Shown here piece after piece: positions 2,966 through 10,127 of a stretch of DNA of 57,293 nucleotides (position 1 is its first letter; every line of letters starts with the position of its first letter). This DNA comes from Myxococcota bacterium (GTDB lineage: Bacteria; Myxococcota; UBA727; JAHDBA01). Made by a program: the position numbers and the translations under genes. The stretch is from contig JAHDGS010000001.1 of the NCBI GenBank assembly GCA_020627505.1, positions 55,659 through 112,951 of the forward strand, read 5' to 3'. The notes under the pieces are model-generated. The model was not told the origin of the DNA and searched no databases. It saw only the letters and a program-made list of their open reading frames with translations.

Positions 2966-3050
2966 TTGCGAAACGCGGGCTTGCGCTTTTCCAAGATTTT
3001 GTTAACACAACGCATTCTAAAAGATCTCAATGATCTGGGAGTCAATAATT

Positions 3051-3434
3051 ATGTCACGTTTATCAAATTCACACATGACCGAGTACGAAACACTCGCAGT
3101 TTTAATTCCGACTGCTGAAGAGTCACAAATCAAGTCTTTTATTGAACGATCGCGCACACTCATTGAAAAAAATGGTGGTAAGCATATTCAAGCGCAAAAC
3201 TGGGGAATCAAAAAGCTCGGTTGGGAACGCGATGGTCAAACAAAAGGTATTTACATTCAACACCGCTACCTTGGAAAAGGTGGATTGGTCAGCGAATATG
3301 AAAGAACGTTGAAGATCGACGAATCAGTTATGCTCCGTCAAACAATTGCCCTCCGAAAAGGCGTTGTGTCAGATACAGTTGAAACATTAAATGATGAATT
3401 AAAGCCTAAGAAAGACGAACCGTCTGCAGCTTAG
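3051..3434 (+). CDS. rpsF: 30S ribosomal protein S6
   Basis: Small-subunit protein that binds 16S rRNA together with S18. It is recognised by the MTEYET start of the fold, the KKLGWERDGQTKGIY region and the acidic/lysine tail. The ATG at 3051 is chosen because GGGAG lies nine bases upstream; the ATG at 3075 (MTEYET) has no ribosome site, and a start at 3030 would add an unlikely leader. The next gene is rplI, 18 bases on. rpsR (S18), which sits between rpsF and rplI in many bacteria, is absent here. Confidence 0.96.
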   Translation: MSRLSNSHMTEYETLAVLIPTAEESQIKSFIERSRTLIEKNGGKHIQAQNWGIKKLGWERDGQTKGIYIQHRYLGKGGLVSEYERTLKIDESVMLRQTIALRKGVVSDTVETLNDELKPKKDEPSAA

Positions 3435-3452
3435 TCTACGAGGAGAAATAAA

Positions 3453-4055
3453 ATGGCATCTCAAATGCAAGTTATTTTAGCGCGAGACGTTCCAAACCTT
3501 GGCCGCGTTGGTGAACTCCACACAGTCAAAGCGGGCTATGCGCGTAACTACTTACTGCCACAAGGCATGGCGATGATGGCGTCGCTGAAGAAAGTAAATG
3601 AGTTTGAACACAAGAAACAATTGATTGCACATCGCATGAAACTTTTGAGAAGCGGCTCGGAACGAAAAGCTGCTGAACTCGAAAAAATTCAGGTCACCTG
3701 TACAGTTAAAGTTGGTCATAATGATAAGCTCTTTGGCTCAGTGACAGCTCGAGAAATCGCTTCTCAACTCGCTGGTCTTGGCTATGTAATTGATCACCGT
3801 GATTTAAAAATAGATGGACCATTGAAATCATTGGGTCTACATGAAATTGCATTGCGTCTCGAAGCTGATGTCAACACGACTATTAAGGTCGTTGTTGTTG
3901 GCGAAAAAATCGATGCAGAAGTTGAAGAAGAAGAGATCAACGAAGATGAGAAACTTGCTGCTGAATCAGCAGATGGAAACATCGATGTTGACGCAGAAGA
4001 GGCAGCTCTTGATGCGCCAGAATCTTCTGAAGTTGAGACTTCAGTTGAAGCTTAG
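3453..4055 (+). CDS. rplI: 50S ribosomal protein L9 with acidic tail
   Basis: Large-subunit protein at the base of the L1 stalk. The N-terminal domain is typical (VILARDVPNLGRVGELHTVK, AGYARNYLLPQG). The core family length is about 150 residues; this one has 200. Residues 152-200 form an added tail rich in Glu, Asp, Ala and Ser that is probably disordered. AGGAG precedes the ATG by about eight bases. It is the second gene of rpsF-rplI. The next gene, a cytochrome, may overlap its last codons. Confidence 0.97.
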   Translation: MASQMQVILARDVPNLGRVGELHTVKAGYARNYLLPQGMAMMASLKKVNEFEHKKQLIAHRMKLLRSGSERKAAELEKIQVTCTVKVGHNDKLFGSVTAREIASQLAGLGYVIDHRDLKIDGPLKSLGLHEIALRLEADVNTTIKVVVVGEKIDAEVEEEEINEDEKLAAESADGNIDVDAEEAALDAPESSEVETSVEA

Positions 4056-4407
4056 AGCAGATTCCACACAGAGAAGAAGCTTCCTTAGGGGAGCTTTTTT
4101 TGTGTCGTCATCTGTGTTCTTTTTAAGTGCGCTATGGGCTTGTGGTGAAAACGCAATTCCAGCTCGACTCACTGATATTGAAGAACGAACAGGTGACGCC
4201 TATAATGGAGAATATATATTTCAACTCAACTGCCAAATCTGTCATGGGCAAAATGAGAATAATACACTGCCATTAGATGGTTCTATCGAGAAAATGGAAT
4301 ATGCCAACATTCTTTTGAATGGCCGCGGGCAAATGCCACAGTTTAGGGATGTCTTAACTAACCAACAAATTGTAGATGTGATTGAATATATTCGAGATAA
4401 ATTTTAG
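4045..4407 (+). CDS. Small c-type cytochrome lipoprotein
   Basis: Monohaem cytochrome c-like protein outside the cytoplasmic membrane. It has one haem motif CQICH, a later Met in GRGQMPQF that can serve as sixth ligand, and the class I C-terminal helix (IVDVIEYIRDKF). The start is uncertain. From TTG at 4045 it has a full signal peptide with KLR, then RRSFLRG, a hydrophobic stretch and the lipobox ALWAC (Cys 33). From GTG at 4102, which has AGGGGAG eight bases upstream, the signal would be only 13 residues with no positive charge. I prefer 4045 for that reason. RRSFLR resembles a twin-arginine motif, which is odd for a c-type cytochrome. Its 3' end overlaps the ATP-grasp gene by 4 bases tail to tail. 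Confidence 0.8.
   Translation: MKLRADSTQRRSFLRGAFFVSSSVFFLSALWACGENAIPARLTDIEERTGDAYNGEYIFQLNCQICHGQNENNTLPLDGSIEKMEYANILLNGRGQMPQFRDVLTNQQIVDVIEYIRDKF
4077..4101 (+). terminator. Candidate intrinsic terminator after rplI
   Basis: Arms 4077-4084 (AAGCTTCC) and 4089-4096 (GGGAGCTT) pair over eight bases with one G-T wobble and a four-base loop, and a T-run reaches 4101. It lies 21 bases after the rplI stop. It overlaps the start region of the cytochrome gene, so either it is leaky or it partly uncouples that gene from the ribosomal operon. Confidence 0.6.
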
Positions 4408-5306
4408 GTTTCTATAGACAGCACAAATAAAGTCCCCATCGTAAACCGTGGGTTCACTTCATTCACTGGGCGAAGCTGTTCATCCCCCGAAGCGCTCCGA
4501 TAAGTAAACCCGTCTAGGCCAAGGGGACCGTAATAGCCCTCTTGTTTTATCTGCTCGACAATATCTCGATGCATTGTAAGCGCATCTTGAAGTATCACTT
4601 GTGAAGGCAATCTAGGCAACCACTTGTGGCCGCGGCATAGACCATGTTTCGTCATATCCTGTTTCAACATGGCCAAATAATCGATATGCCCATTTTCATG
4701 AATCCACCACTGTGTGCTGAAATCCATCATTCTCTCAACCCAGGGCTCAAGTATAAATCCCCCCTGCTCCATCAATCTTGCAAATGAACGAACTTGATCT
4801 CTTATCAACATATCCAATCCTAAGACCGATTGTGTCTGCACATCATCAAGATAAGTAAAGCCACGCCCACTTGTGCCGAATCTTGGTTTCAGAACCCATC
4901 TATCAAACTGTGGGTGCCCGATGATATGGGTTTTCATATCAGCCATGCATTGTAGTGCATTTTGAAGCTCATCTGGCGAAAAGGACTGCGAGACGTTCCA
5001 AGTCGAATCGGATCGAAGTGTCCACGCCTTATCAGAAAGACTATTCACAACTGCCGAATCCGAACCAAATAGAACGCCTTTTGCTCCCTGAATATATTGA
5101 TGCACATCTCGATTATTTAGCCAGGCGACCCAACTGTCTTCAGGAATCCAGCTCTTCTTTTTGACTTCTTTGATTGTTGCAAGAAATTGTGTCTTCATTT
5201 GAAAAAAAAGCACACTGTCGGGATCAATTGGAGAACGTTTATCTTCCCCACCAATATTGATGATGCAATGATGCTCTTTCAAGATATATCTGTGAAAAGG
5301 ACGCAT
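4404..5306 (-). CDS. ATP-grasp ligase-like protein
   Basis: Likely ATP-dependent carboxylate-amine (or thiol) ligase; the substrate is unknown. It shows ATP-grasp signatures in order: an ATP-binding Lys with a glycine-rich loop (WVLKPRFGTSGRGF, Lys 140 and 143-149), an acidic hinge region EPWVER (187-192), and the metal-binding NEVNPR (282-287). It has 300 residues and no signal peptide. An AAAGG ribosome site precedes the ATG, nine bases after the DUF455 stop, so it is the third gene of the TPR-DUF455-ATP-grasp operon. ATP-grasp enzymes beside metal oxidases occur in small-molecule and peptide-modifying pathways; that this is one is inference. Confidence 0.85.
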   Translation of the reverse strand: MRPFHRYILKEHHCIINIGGEDKRSPIDPDSVLFFQMKTQFLATIKEVKKKSWIPEDSWVAWLNNRDVHQYIQGAKGVLFGSDSAVVNSLSDKAWTLRSDSTWNVSQSFSPDELQNALQCMADMKTHIIGHPQFDRWVLKPRFGTSGRGFTYLDDVQTQSVLGLDMLIRDQVRSFARLMEQGGFILEPWVERMMDFSTQWWIHENGHIDYLAMLKQDMTKHGLCRGHKWLPRLPSQVILQDALTMHRDIVEQIKQEGYYGPLGLDGFTYRSASGDEQLRPVNEVNPRFTMGTLFVLSIET

Positions 5307-5315
5307 GACTGGCCT

Positions 5316-6206
5316 TTATATATGCTGATTAGTTTGTCGTTCTTTTTCGTGCCGATGTCTGAGTTTTGCATCAAACATATCGCGAGACATGGTTTTTGAT
5401 GACCGAATATAATCGATAAAATCATCACTGAGACCTGCTGCCTTTCGACTCTTTCGGTCAAAAGTGCGGCCCTTTGCACGGGCACCACATAATGGAAAAG
5501 GCACAGCATCTTCATATGCGGCAATATCATTTGATTGGTCGGTTAATTTCTTCAACCAGTGTTGTGCAAATTTCACATGTCCAACTTCATCATCATGAAC
5601 AATCTGAATCAATCGAGCGCTCTCATCATCACCGGCCGCTTTAAATGCATCGCGATACATTAAAGATAGGTCGAGGTTGGCTTGTTCGAGCGTCAGTCCC
5701 ATTGCAGCCAAAAATGATTTAACACCTTCAAGACCTGGACGATGGGTCGGTACCGTACGCCAAAAATAATCAGGTAAACCATGTTGACCAAAGATATGAC
5801 CGAAGTCTCTTAACCGTTCTAAGTACATCCGACAGTGTTGCTGTTCTTCTTCAAGAATGATGAGCCAACCTCGGAGTATCGGCTTTGGCGCATCAGCATA
5901 TGCACAGATGGCCCACGCAAATAACTCAACAGCCATCAACTCGTGATTTGCAAAACGTTCAATGCATACGGCACGGGCTGATACTTCTGTTAAAGCTGAG
6001 AGTTTAGGCATCGCCATTTTTTTATCGCGCATACTGATAGATTGATGGCGGTTGGGCCGCTCGATGCGGAAAGGTAAACCTGGATACACATCTTCGAATG
6101 ACAATAATTCACCATCATCAGTTCGCGGTGGTTTCAACTTGTGTTCAAGCGAATCAGCACAAAGTAATTGCTCACAAAAAACATAAGGCGAATTGGTCTT
6201 TGTCAT
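5316..6206 (-). CDS. DUF455 ferritin-like protein (COG2833 type)
   Basis: Ferritin-like four-helix protein that should bind two iron or manganese ions. The ligand pattern is complete: Glu 94 (AVELF), ExxH at 121-124 (EEEQQH), Glu 174 (LTLEQANLDL), and ExxH at 207-210 (HDDEVGH). It has 296 residues and no signal peptide, so it is cytosolic. DUF455 members have no established reaction that I know of. Its start codon overlaps the stop of the TPR gene (ATGA), giving translational coupling, and the ATP-grasp gene follows after nine bases. A redox or oxygenase step feeding the ligase, or the reverse, is the natural guess. Confidence 0.88.
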   Translation of the reverse strand: MTKTNSPYVFCEQLLCADSLEHKLKPPRTDDGELLSFEDVYPGLPFRIERPNRHQSISMRDKKMAMPKLSALTEVSARAVCIERFANHELMAVELFAWAICAYADAPKPILRGWLIILEEEQQHCRMYLERLRDFGHIFGQHGLPDYFWRTVPTHRPGLEGVKSFLAAMGLTLEQANLDLSLMYRDAFKAAGDDESARLIQIVHDDEVGHVKFAQHWLKKLTDQSNDIAAYEDAVPFPLCGARAKGRTFDRKSRKAAGLSDDFIDYIRSSKTMSRDMFDAKLRHRHEKERQTNQHI

Positions 6207-7057
6207 GCCGATAATTGGCCTGTTAGACTGTCTAGCTCACTTTGGGCAAGCTTTGCATAAGGTGTTGAACCTGATTGAATCTTTTGAAATTCAGCCACCG
6301 CTTCACTTCGATGCCCAAGAGATAGCAGTGCTCGCCCCAGGTGATACCGGGTAAACTCGACATCGCCTTCTCGAAGATTCTTGCTTTGTTTGAGGGCCCG
6401 AGACAAAACTGTAATGGCTTCATTAGGTTCTTGACGCGCAAGATGAACAACACCAAGTGTTCGTAACGCATATTGTTTATCAGCGGGCGCAGCAAGCTCA
6501 AGGGCTTGCTCACCATACTCAAGCGCAACATCAAGGTCGACTTCAAGCTTCGCCAGTGTGTAGGCATAATTATTATACCATAAGGCACGATCTTCAGGGA
6601 CGAGTATACTTGGCTCTAAGTCATCGAGCGCCATACGGGCACGATCGTATAAGCGCTGCTCACAATAAATCGCCGCAGGGACAAGTTTCGCAGCATGATC
6701 GTCAGTATGAACCATCATATGGTTTTTAAGCGCATGCTCTGCTTCTGAAAAATCTCCCGCCGTAAAAAGGCTCGCGATCAATAAACGACTCGCTTGCGCA
6801 TTGTCGTTTTGAAGTAATAAGACACGACGACTGGCTTCAATCGCTTTTTGATGATCACTACGCTGATGTGCTTCAATTGCTTCACGCAACAACATTTCGG
6901 CATAAGCATCTCTTGTTCTGCCTGGGAGACGCTTCGGATCTGTCGTCCACGCCGCTTTCAACTTATTCCGCCTTAAAACATAAGACCCCAGAACGACTGG
7001 CGCGTAAACAACTGCAGAGCCTGCGATCAAAACGCCTAAAATAACGAGTAAAGACAT
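6203..7057 (-). CDS. Membrane-anchored TPR protein
   Basis: 284 residues. One hydrophobic segment at about residues 3-25 is followed by a basic stretch, so the rest probably faces the cytoplasm. Helical tetratricopeptide-like repeats fill residues 50-280 (for example AIEASRRVLLLQNDNAQASRLL, YNNYAYTLAKLEVDLDVALEYGEQALEL, TRYHLGRALLSLGHRSEAVAEF, each only partly quoted in other sources as consensus). It is the first gene of the operon with DUF455 and ATP-grasp and may act as their membrane scaffold. It is divergent from the lipoprotein at 7149, with 91 bases between them. Confidence 0.85.
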   Translation of the reverse strand: MSLLVILGVLIAGSAVVYAPVVLGSYVLRRNKLKAAWTTDPKRLPGRTRDAYAEMLLREAIEAHQRSDHQKAIEASRRVLLLQNDNAQASRLLIASLFTAGDFSEAEHALKNHMMVHTDDHAAKLVPAAIYCEQRLYDRARMALDDLEPSILVPEDRALWYNNYAYTLAKLEVDLDVALEYGEQALELAAPADKQYALRTLGVVHLARQEPNEAITVLSRALKQSKNLREGDVEFTRYHLGRALLSLGHRSEAVAEFQKIQSGSTPYAKLAQSELDSLTGQLSA

Positions 7058-7148
7058 GCTTATTTATAGATCAAGTTACTGCAAAAAATCACGCTTTTTC
7101 GGTCAAAGATCCGATATGCAACATGTAATTCCTTGGCATAATTAAAGG

Positions 7149-7832
7149 ATGTGGGGAAAAAACGACCATCTAAAACAATTACGATTCTGTTCTATTATTT
7201 TTTTGAGCATATTCGGATGTGCCGAAGAGGAACTGGATGACGCCCAGACTAATAATACCAATGTCACGCTTGAGGGCTGTGCCGAAAGTGAGCATCTCTG
7301 TTCAGATGGGTCACGTGTTCCAGTGATGTTAGATTGTTCATATACGTGTCCTGACGAGAATATGATGCCAGAAGATCCACCTGATTTATGTATTGATACA
7401 GGCGGCCAATATGGAGAGGCATGCGAATTTAAATGTGGTACCGATATCGGGGTCTGTCTCGAGCCACAAGAGGTGTGCCTTTGTTCTCCAGGGCGGCGTT
7501 TCGATGCAACAAATGGCTGCGTGGACGATCCTGATTGCGGAAGTGCAACAACCGCAGATGCAAACAGATGTCGAGAAACCGGCGGAACGTGGTGGTACGA
7601 TGCCTGCGATAACTTCAATTGCGGCTCGCCTGCAACATGTGATGAAAACGCTCCACACGTCGGCGCATGCCAATGCGAGTTTGATCAAAACTTCAATTCA
7701 CAGCAAGGCTGCATATCGGATGTAAGTTGTGATAGTGAAGTCCTTGAAGGATGCCGTGAGGACAATGATTGTCCACTCGGGCAACAGTGTGACCTCGGTT
7801 TTACTGGAATGCCGCCTGGGATTTGTTACTGA
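7149..7832 (+). CDS. Cys-rich secreted lipoprotein
   Basis: 227 residues with a type II signal peptide (hydrophobic stretch ending SIFGC). The mature part is rich in paired cysteines, over twenty of them, suggesting many disulfides. Recurrent short blocks such as CxxDxGGxxxxxCxxxCG and DxxCxxGQQCD resemble the small disulfide modules common in surface lipoproteins of Myxococcota. There is no enzyme motif. The ATG has AAAGG right next to it and a CATAAT-like box just upstream. Its 3' end overlaps the DsbA-like gene by 7 bases tail to tail; a disulfide-handling neighbour fits a Cys-rich product, although the two are on opposite strands. Confidence 0.82.
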   Translation: MWGKNDHLKQLRFCSIIFLSIFGCAEEELDDAQTNNTNVTLEGCAESEHLCSDGSRVPVMLDCSYTCPDENMMPEDPPDLCIDTGGQYGEACEFKCGTDIGVCLEPQEVCLCSPGRRFDATNGCVDDPDCGSATTADANRCRETGGTWWYDACDNFNCGSPATCDENAPHVGACQCEFDQNFNSQQGCISDVSCDSEVLEGCREDNDCPLGQQCDLGFTGMPPGICY

Positions 7833-8887
7833 GCTTGACTGGGTTGCTTCGCCATCAGATGTAAGTCAATCCGCTCTTGAATCGCATCCGGACTATTTTC
7901 GCCATCGTAGACATAACCATCAATATACATTGAGGGTGTGCCACGGACTCCCAGTGTCTTGCCCAATTCAAGATCTGCTTGAATACGTTCGTGCATCGAC
8001 GAAGCACCGACACACATTTTGAACGCTTCAATATCAAGCCCTATCTCAACTGCTTTATTTTCGTAGAAGGTCGCACCAAGCTCAGATTGGTTCATATAAA
8101 GTTGGCGTTTATAGTCGGTAAATCGGCCTTGTTGATGTGCACACATCGAAGCGATCGCCGCCGAGAAAGCATGCTCATGAAAACTTAATGGAAAGTGGAC
8201 AAACTCAACTTTTAGATTCTCTTTATTTTTTAGTGCCAAGATATCAAAAAGTTGATCTGCTCGGGCGCAATACGGGCATTGAAAATCTGTGAATACAGTC
8301 AGTGTAACAGGAGATTGTTCTGAACCAATGAACGGTGTGTCCGAGGCCACATTCAACGCCGCATCACCAGGATACCAGGATGCAAATGGCAGTTTTAAAT
8401 CATGCGCAGCTTCAAGCCTCTTTGTCTCTGTTGTGAGGTCTTCGCCTGATTTATAACTAATATATTCCTGCAAAATACGTGGCTTAAGGGTTTCGAAATC
8501 GTTTTCGTGCCCACCCAGGTTTTTGAAAAAAGTCAGTAGCGTCTCGTCTGATGCAGCAGAATGGATGGCTTCTCGCTCTTTCAAATAAGCTTCAATACCA
8601 TCTTTCAAAACAGGATCTGACGACATCCATTTGTTCTTAAAGTATGCTTGAATACTCTTGGCCCTTTCAAGTGCATGTGCGTAGCGTAAAGCCTGTTCTG
8701 TTGCCGATAGACTATCGAATAGTTCTGGTTCGCGTGTTGCGTCGATGATTTGGCCGTCAACAATGATTTGACTTTCTGTGACAGTCGATGTTCGATCGGC
8801 TTCTGTTGACGAGGCTGTCGATGTATGTTTCGTGGTCTGACAAGATATCAATAATACGAGTACAAAATAAATAACGATTCGATGCAT
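7826..8887 (-). CDS. DsbA-like thioredoxin-fold lipoprotein
   Basis: Probable periplasmic thiol-disulfide oxidoreductase tethered by a lipid. The start at 8887 is chosen because AAAGGA lies seven bases upstream and it gives an ideal signal peptide ending LLISC (Cys 16). Residues 50-180 are a helical region of unknown role. The thioredoxin domain follows, with active site CPYC at 204-207 in TDFQCPYCARAD, a helical insert, and the cis-proline loop GTPSMYIDG. It is about 353 residues, longer than classical DsbA and like the multidomain DSBA-type proteins of delta-like bacteria. It lies 28 bases after threonine ammonia-lyase and may share its transcript. Confidence 0.9.
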   Translation of the reverse strand: MHRIVIYFVLVLLISCQTTKHTSTASSTEADRTSTVTESQIIVDGQIIDATREPELFDSLSATEQALRYAHALERAKSIQAYFKNKWMSSDPVLKDGIEAYLKEREAIHSAASDETLLTFFKNLGGHENDFETLKPRILQEYISYKSGEDLTTETKRLEAAHDLKLPFASWYPGDAALNVASDTPFIGSEQSPVTLTVFTDFQCPYCARADQLFDILALKNKENLKVEFVHFPLSFHEHAFSAAIASMCAHQQGRFTDYKRQLYMNQSELGATFYENKAVEIGLDIEAFKMCVGASSMHERIQADLELGKTLGVRGTPSMYIDGYVYDGENSPDAIQERIDLHLMAKQPSQAQ

Positions 8888-8915
8888 AGAAAATCCTTTA
8901 GTACACTGAATGACC

Positions 8916-10127
8916 TTAATATTCGGAATGAAATGTGTAGCCAGAAGCCTCAAGACCTTTTTTAATATCAGCAATATGTTCTTTCCCGCGCGTTTCGAGC
9001 TCGAGCTCGATACTCACTTTTCCAACTTCAAGATTGGTATAAATACGCTCATGATGGATTTGTTTCACATTCGCACCCAGCTCCGCGATACGACTCAACA
9101 CCTTCGCCAAGGCCCCTGGGCGATCTTCAGCGGTGACCGTTAATACAAATGCACGGCCACTCTCGATCAAACCACGCTCGATAATCTTAGACAATAAATT
9201 CACATCTATATTACCACCACAGTTGAGGGTGACGACCTGACATCCTGACAAACCATCAATTTTTTCCGCGATCAGAGCAGCCATCGCTGCCGCACCAGCA
9301 CCTTCAGCAACGGTTTTTTCCCGCTCAATAAAATATAAGATGCCTCTGGCAATATCATCTTCTGAAACGGTCACGATTTCATCAACATACTGCTCAACAT
9401 GTTTGAGACAATGGTACCCAACACAGCCGACAGCAATTCCCTCTGCAAGGGTTGGATGTGCGTTCACAGTCACAGGCTGCTGATTGGTGAGCGCCATTTT
9501 CATAGACGGCATGACGGCTGCTTCAACCCCGATGATACGGACAGAAGGTTTAAGGGATTTGATCGCACATGCAATGCCAGAGATTAATCCTCCCCCACCG
9601 ACTGGCACAACAACCACATCGAGATTTGGACAGTCTTCAAGCATTTCAAGACCAATTGTCCCCTGTCCCGCGATGATATATTCGTCATCATATGCAGAAA
9701 TGAAAATCGCGTTCCGTTTGGCAACCAGGTGTTTGGCATGGTCGACCGCTTCTTGAAATGAGGCGCCATGTAGGACCGTATTTGCACCGTATTGTGCGGT
9801 TGCAGTGACTTTTATGAGCGGTGTGGCTTCCGGCATCACGATTGTTGCATCAATACCAAGCCGCTTTGCATGATAGGCGACACCTTGCGCGTGATTACCT
9901 GCAGAAGCAGCGATAACACCGGCACGCCGTTCATCATCAGACAGCATCAACAATTTATTCAGTGCGCCACGGGCCTTGAACGATCCTGTTAATTGAAAAT
10001 TTTCATGTTTGACCCAAACATCATAATCTCTCAAATCAGAAATGGTTTGACTCTTTTTGAGCGGTGTTCGAAGCACCTGCCCACGAATTCGTTCTTCAGC
10101 TTTTTGTATATCTTCGAGTGAAATCAT
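8916..10127 (-). CDS. ilvA: Threonine ammonia-lyase (threonine dehydratase)
   Basis: PLP enzyme converting threonine to 2-oxobutanoate and ammonia, the first step of isoleucine synthesis. PLP is held by Lys 51 in GSFKARGA. The SAGNHAQG motif and the PLP phosphate loop (PVGGGGLISG) are present. About 75 C-terminal residues (from VLTVTAEDRPGALAKVLSRI) form an ACT-like domain, typical of the roughly 400-residue form. That form can be biosynthetic or catabolic, so the symbol could be tdcB. It is divergent from the gene at 10186 with a 58-base shared upstream region. Confidence 0.94.
   Translation of the reverse strand: MISLEDIQKAEERIRGQVLRTPLKKSQTISDLRDYDVWVKHENFQLTGSFKARGALNKLLMLSDDERRAGVIAASAGNHAQGVAYHAKRLGIDATIVMPEATPLIKVTATAQYGANTVLHGASFQEAVDHAKHLVAKRNAIFISAYDDEYIIAGQGTIGLEMLEDCPNLDVVVVPVGGGGLISGIACAIKSLKPSVRIIGVEAAVMPSMKMALTNQQPVTVNAHPTLAEGIAVGCVGYHCLKHVEQYVDEIVTVSEDDIARGILYFIEREKTVAEGAGAAAMAALIAEKIDGLSGCQVVTLNCGGNIDVNLLSKIIERGLIESGRAFVLTVTAEDRPGALAKVLSRIAELGANVKQIHHERIYTNLEVGKVSIELELETRGKEHIADIKKGLEASGYTFHSEY

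Follow-up and report, generated by a model that had tools for sequence, protein, structure and literature searches.

Which of three closely spaced genes belong together, and what they might do together, is the question raised by a locus from a Myxococcota bacterium, within a stretch of 57,293 nucleotides, hereafter the window (contig C123 of assembly G000; 2.8 Mb, 70% complete). The three genes, all on the minus strand and transcribed in this order, encode a tetratricopeptide repeat (TPR) protein (window positions 6203-7057; 284 amino acids), a predicted ferritin-like diiron protein of the DUF455 family (PF04305; 5316-6206; 296 amino acids) and an ATP-grasp protein whose family has no Pfam model (4404-5306; 300 amino acids). 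The stop codon of the TPR gene and the start codon of the DUF455 gene share the ATGA at 6203-6206, and 9 bases (5307-5315) separate the DUF455 and ATP-grasp genes; the open reading frame coordinates exactly match the arrangement described in the original prediction, an earlier reading of this DNA in which all three products were assigned to one system. Comparison across genomes indicates that DUF455 and ATP-grasp are an obligate pair over several phyla and that the TPR protein is a local neighbor in the lineage of the window only, outside the conserved module.

A genome collection was scanned with a DUF455 alignment, yielding 80 loci, ranked by identity, from Myxococcota, 'Deltaproteobacteria', Acidobacteria, Bdellovibrio relatives, Verrucomicrobia, Planctomycetota and one Waddliaceae genome. 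With 3 loci cut by contig ends left out, 77 were readable. The ATP-grasp domain is fused C-terminally to DUF455 in 32 of these and encoded by an adjacent gene in 38, directly downstream on the same strand and often with a 4-base overlap; the two lie apart in the other 7, and all 7 of these genomes encode the ATP-grasp elsewhere. The pair is usually present in a single copy per genome. A tree of 123 DUF455 domains, built with a quick method from the scan loci and those of 40 further genomes, consists of two deep clades (SH-aLRT support of 99 for the split). In clade 2, which includes the window protein, the ATP-grasp is adjacent to DUF455 in 55 members, fused to it in 32 and apart from it in 12, and a further 3 members are cut, so that the two genes are linked in 87 of the 99 readable cases. 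The 12 unlinked members are the 7 from the scan and 5 from one Planctomycete clade, and each of the 12 genomes carries the ATP-grasp at another site: in those 5 genomes, as well as in genome G285, the DUF455 of which was left out of the tree, the ATP-grasp profile A6 detects one such protein (E-values from 5e-54 to 5e-69). The label 'fused' changes 5 times on the tree, with at least 3 changes forced by well-supported branches, and therefore fusion or fission of the two genes happened repeatedly.

Because the scan was ranked by identity, two phyla were also sampled evenly, those of a Planctomycete (locus L114) and of a Bdellovibrio relative (L109). Many DUF455 frames in both are just 260-300 amino acids long, which is why the surroundings of the frames in the 40 further genomes were read. 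The even samples consist mostly of separate genes and of a stand-alone clade, and we rejected fusion as the universal state, an impression created by the identity-ranked scan. The Bdellovibrio-type phylum was represented by 144 genomes; 45 of them encode the ATP-grasp (threshold E<1e-10), and 43 of these 45 also encode a full-length DUF455, located immediately upstream in 42 genomes (12 of these in one frame) and on a different contig in the remaining one. Another 25 genomes of this phylum have full-length DUF455 and no ATP-grasp; all 16 of these that were placed in the tree belong to clade 1. In the phylum of the window, the ATP-grasp is present in 13 of 13 genomes with DUF455 versus 3 of the 45 that lack the full-length protein (Fisher p=1.8e-10, uncorrected for kinship). 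Absence can be joint as well: neither protein was found in G006, and both are present in its family relatives G004, G008 and G010. The obligate co-occurrence, the conserved order and the repeated fusion show that the DUF455 and ATP-grasp proteins act in one process. The functional link postulated in the original prediction is thus sustained by linkage in most of clade 2 and co-occurrence even where the genes are unlinked. The search for a conserved neighborhood that it proposed finds the pair adjacent or within one protein across several phyla, and the separation that would have counted against it had it held in nearly all relatives is seen in only 12 of the 99.

Clade 1 (loci L130, L131, L152-L154, L168-L174, L176-L179, L181 and L184-L187) comprises DUF455 proteins of Sinorhizobium and Azospirillum together with most short frames sampled in the Bdellovibrio-type phylum; three members come from the sample of the Planctomycete phylum. 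These stand-alone proteins belong to the same Pfam family as the window DUF455 and have the same metal ligands but are 23-29% identical to it, form a deeply separate clade and do not occur with this ATP-grasp. There is no ATP-grasp gene nearby in any of the 21 cases, and none was found in 8 clade-1 genomes searched with profile A6, for which the positive controls were matched; the Sinorhizobium and Azospirillum records searched also yielded none, a result on which we do not rely because these are partial genomes without a positive control. In the cases read, clade-1 DUF455 genes stand beside peroxiredoxin/M23, CysQ and YebC-like genes. Pfam lumps both clades as a single family.

The window DUF455 protein matches PF04305 with E=8.1e-42 (143.9 bits, against a cut-off of 34.3), and so do 35 of 35 aligned relatives. 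The ligand set E89, E121-x2-H124, E174 and E207-x2-H210 (E / ExxH / E / ExxH) is invariant in these 35 diverse relatives, as are E94 and N177, and conserved motifs are also present at both termini, beyond the four-helix core. In an AlphaFold model of the protein (local confidence score pLDDT of 93.9), the ligand residues reside on four long helices, in the order that is classical for a ferritin-like diiron site, so the claim of a ferritin-like protein with a complete two-metal ligand set held up for all six ligands. The top Foldseek matches, bacterioferritin and aldehyde-deformylating oxygenase, are remote (E of 0.02-0.1, query TM-score of at most 0.41), and the diiron matches from a profile search against PDB sequences were likewise no more than weak (the encapsulated ferritin EncC and toluene monooxygenase). 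Together, the ligands, the model and the Foldseek matches support DUF455 as a ferritin-like, predicted diiron oxidase or oxygenase. PF14518, the profile of haem-oxygenase-like diiron oxidases (HDO), is matched by 4 of the 35 relatives (best E-value 1.8e-5) and not by the window protein, the best structural matches being ferritin-like.

The window ATP-grasp protein scores above the cut-off of no family in a Pfam search. It contains the seven residues K93, K140, E187, D265, E283, N285 and R287, of which D265, E283, N285 and R287 are invariant in all 26 very diverse homologs of alignment A6, and K140 and E187 are kept in 24, in agreement with the proposal of a ligase with all motifs intact. D265 and the E-x-N-x-R motif stand for the metal and catalytic residues of the superfamily, and K140 and E187 for its nucleotide-binding Lys and Glu. 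Invariant along with the catalytic residues are E21 and W62; N17-x3-E21 and W62 look like signatures of the family. To model a fused homolog, AlphaFold was given 31 fused sequences (pLDDT of 83.6), and the ATP-grasp fold is secure because Foldseek matches this part of the model to biotin carboxylase, PurK and Ddl with E-values of 2e-9 to 2e-8. The nearest solved chains in a search of the PDB with profile A6 are 7r8p (3e-7), 8yi6 (3e-5) and 8ynd (1e-3), so that, by sequence, the closest solved relatives appear to be amino-acid or peptide ligases. The proteins of G000 (window 4404-4480) and of its family relative G001 end soon after the E-x-N-x-R motif; most members carry a C-terminal tail of about 40-90 residues. 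Judged by sequence similarity, the family is wider than the DUF455 pair: ATP-grasp relatives without an adjoining DUF455 are encoded at L022:2118-3263 (G043), L023:1666-2952 (G044) and, in Prevotella nigrescens, L147:5497-6612. In two Planctomycetota with unlinked DUF455 (L201:4153-7519 and L202:3807-7219), the gene for the ATP-grasp shares an overlap with that of a HemW/HemN-like radical-SAM protein and is adjoined by a divergently oriented gene for ferrochelatase, which may be a hint, though a thin one, at haem or iron.

Because both active sites are intact, both proteins are likely to be catalytic. At a probability of about 0.6, we consider DUF455 and ATP-grasp to be a two-enzyme module that combines ATP-dependent ligation and diiron-dependent oxidation by O2 of one amino-acid- or peptide-like substrate. 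Given the resemblance of the ligase to amino-acid ligases and the diiron ligand set of the oxidase, the most economical reading, we infer, is that an amino-acid-like substrate is both ligated at the expense of ATP and oxidized with O2 in coupled reactions. The ATP-grasp domain would convert a carboxylate into an activated acyl phosphate, which it would then join to an amine or a similar nucleophile, presumably yielding an amide. DUF455 would hold a diiron center bound by carboxylates and histidines and, using O2, would oxidize the same substrate by hydroxylation, desaturation or N-oxygenation, either before or after ligation. The substrate, probably a small amino-acid- or peptide-like molecule, would be passed between the two sites within a complex or within the fused protein. 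More tentatively, and at somewhat less than even odds, the pair could be viewed as a bifunctional oxidase-ligase that, in Myxococcota, Bdellovibrio relatives, Verrucomicrobia, Planctomycetota, Acidobacteria and a chlamydial relative, makes a widely shared, so far undescribed metabolite, cofactor or modification by coupled ligation and diiron oxidation.

Several observations weigh against coupled ligation and oxidation. The similarity of DUF455 to solved diiron enzymes is only remote, the AlphaFold model of the fused protein has a predicted TM-score (pTM) of 0.58 and supports no inter-domain contact or channel, and the neighboring genes of the pair point to no consistent pathway. Furthermore, the ATP-grasp occurs without full-length DUF455 in two or three relatives from the phylum of the window and in two from the Bdellovibrio-type phylum, and because of these cases, the ligase may have a separate function of its own.

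The role of the pair might differ from the one just proposed. The target could be a macromolecule, such as a protein side chain or tail, or a tRNA, to which the ATP-grasp would add an amino acid and on which DUF455 would oxidize the attached group; to speak of a 'modification system' as opposed to a small-molecule pathway is, however, a matter of inference. The usual single copy, the ordinary housekeeping surroundings and the lack of gene clusters fit such a role, and protein-modifying ATP-grasp enzymes have precedents, RimK being one. Protein modification has also been predicted for CDC123-like ATP-grasp families (PMC4431377). We nevertheless regard it as unlikely, given that no conserved target gene stands beside the pair: an all-against-all BLAST comparison of the 80 loci revealed no third gene that recurs outside single lineages, the matches being due to lineage-specific synteny or to antisense frames of the two genes themselves, and the 92 flanking proteins scanned with Pfam have a variety of housekeeping functions and form no consistent pathway. 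Moreover, the ATP-grasp has its nearest solved relatives among small-molecule amino-acid ligases and not in RimK. Still less probable is a role of DUF455 as a ferritin-like subunit for iron storage or metal delivery, with the ATP-grasp producing an iron-binding metabolite or acting alone. The bacterioferritins that lead the Foldseek list, the weak profile match to EncC and the two Planctomycetota in which the unlinked ATP-grasp gene lies between the HemW/HemN-like gene and ferrochelatase would agree with it. Against it, the window protein scores 16.2 bits with PF00210, below the cut-off of 24.5, and a plain ferritin was rejected; DUF455, unlike cage ferritins, often forms part of a fusion and carries conserved motifs at both its N and C termini; and the haem neighbors occur in just two genomes. 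An oxidase and a ligase acting on one small amino-acid-like substrate thus remains our preferred account of the pair.

Other alternatives concern the size of the system. That the shared neighborhood reflects chance or old synteny, with no functional link, is already refuted by the counts, in view of the repeated fusion, the co-occurrence of unlinked genes and the absence of the ATP-grasp in the sister clade. The converse, a system of three proteins with the TPR protein as membrane scaffold for both enzymes, as the original prediction had it, now seems very improbable. The protein has TPR repeats and a single N-terminal hydrophobic segment (Kyte-Doolittle value of 2.4 over residues 5-23), and the gene order and coupling in the window genome are in keeping with a scaffold; the order is repeated in G001, with a 65-base gap. 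However, the TPR gene precedes DUF455 in G000 and G001 only. Its orthologs, 48-53% identical, are single-copy in G002, G003, G006, G008 and G010, where none adjoins DUF455 or ATP-grasp; G006 has the TPR gene and, as noted, neither enzyme; and in other groups the pair stands without a TPR gene. About 7 kb separate the TPR gene of G002 from the pair on the same strand, and because of this, an old, loose neighborhood is possible. On the distribution of its orthologs, we rejected the TPR protein as a third member of the module. Of the pathway originally envisaged, then, the coupling of oxidase and ligase stands, on fusion, adjacency and co-occurrence, and the membrane scaffold finds no support. 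The gene for the TPR protein with its membrane segment (window 6203-7057; L211-L216) is itself conserved, at 48-56% identity, as a single copy across several families of the order.

Around the three genes, the window encodes a CBB3-type cytochrome c on the plus strand (3916-4407), convergent with the ATP-grasp gene and overlapping its end by 4 bases, and a Cys-rich, secreted-looking protein without a Pfam match (7149-7832), divergent from the TPR gene. At 3030-4055, genes for ribosomal proteins that we named bS6 and bL9 by eye from the sequence adjoin, with the usual intervening bS18 gene missing. A scan of positions 4000-9000 for promoters and terminators yielded sites not above the level of shuffled sequences.

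With the coupled oxidase-ligase module, a testable function is proposed that DUF455, a family of unknown function, would share with an ATP-grasp family not yet catalogued, and the natural fusions, such as those at L055 and at L114 (Aporhodopirellula aestuarii), offer a ready single protein for biochemistry. The two clades into which DUF455 splits should not share an annotation. That the pair occurs in several phyla, with housekeeping genes around it, points to a metabolite or modification of general use and not to a sporadic natural product.

We know of no established reaction for DUF455, in line with the original prediction: a search of the open literature, with subscription papers outside its reach, found nothing on the function of this family or on a link between a ferritin-like protein and this ATP-grasp, and the DUF455 matches were mostly to similarly numbered DUFs (DUF4551, DUF4559), plus one paper on a homology method. 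Among individual enzymes, the window ATP-grasp matches the L-aspartate--L-methionine ligase LdmS (NF047900) at 1.9e-5, and its nearest solved chain is 7r8p (7r8p/7r8q), which we read as LdmS itself, the title of the PDB entry saying just 'ATP-grasp domain-containing protein'. An identity with LdmS was rejected: the score of 23.6 bits is far below the equivalog cut-off of 475, and the window protein has its own N-terminal NxxxE and W motifs. The second nearest solved relative, L-propargylglycine--L-glutamate ligase (8yi6; E of 3e-5), is likewise an ATP-grasp amino-acid ligase to which the similarity is remote. We know of no DUF455 partner for LdmS and of no ferritin-like partner for the 8yi6 ligase. 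Bacterioferritin and aldehyde-deformylating oxygenase share the four-helix fold and two ExxH motifs with DUF455 but are matched at an E-value of 0.02 or worse and lack its extra conserved termini.

The closest systems are the gene clusters that combine an HDO with an ATP-grasp amino-acid ligase, for example, mangotoxin mboABCDEF; at least 25 types of such clusters are counted in PMC13185094, and clusters of diiron oxidases and ATP-grasp enzymes had been predicted earlier (PMC2922099). The common logic is that an ATP-grasp amino-acid ligase works together with a diiron oxidase. The oxidase of the window, however, is a ferritin-like DUF455 protein that is not placed among the HDOs, and the pair, often a single protein and usually present in one copy per genome, is not accompanied by the further conserved genes that characterize the multi-gene clusters. 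By analogy, the DUF455 pair may work like these clusters without being one of them. What is new is the pairing of DUF455 and ATP-grasp as oxidase and ligase; the logic of joining a diiron oxidase to an ATP-grasp ligase is already known.

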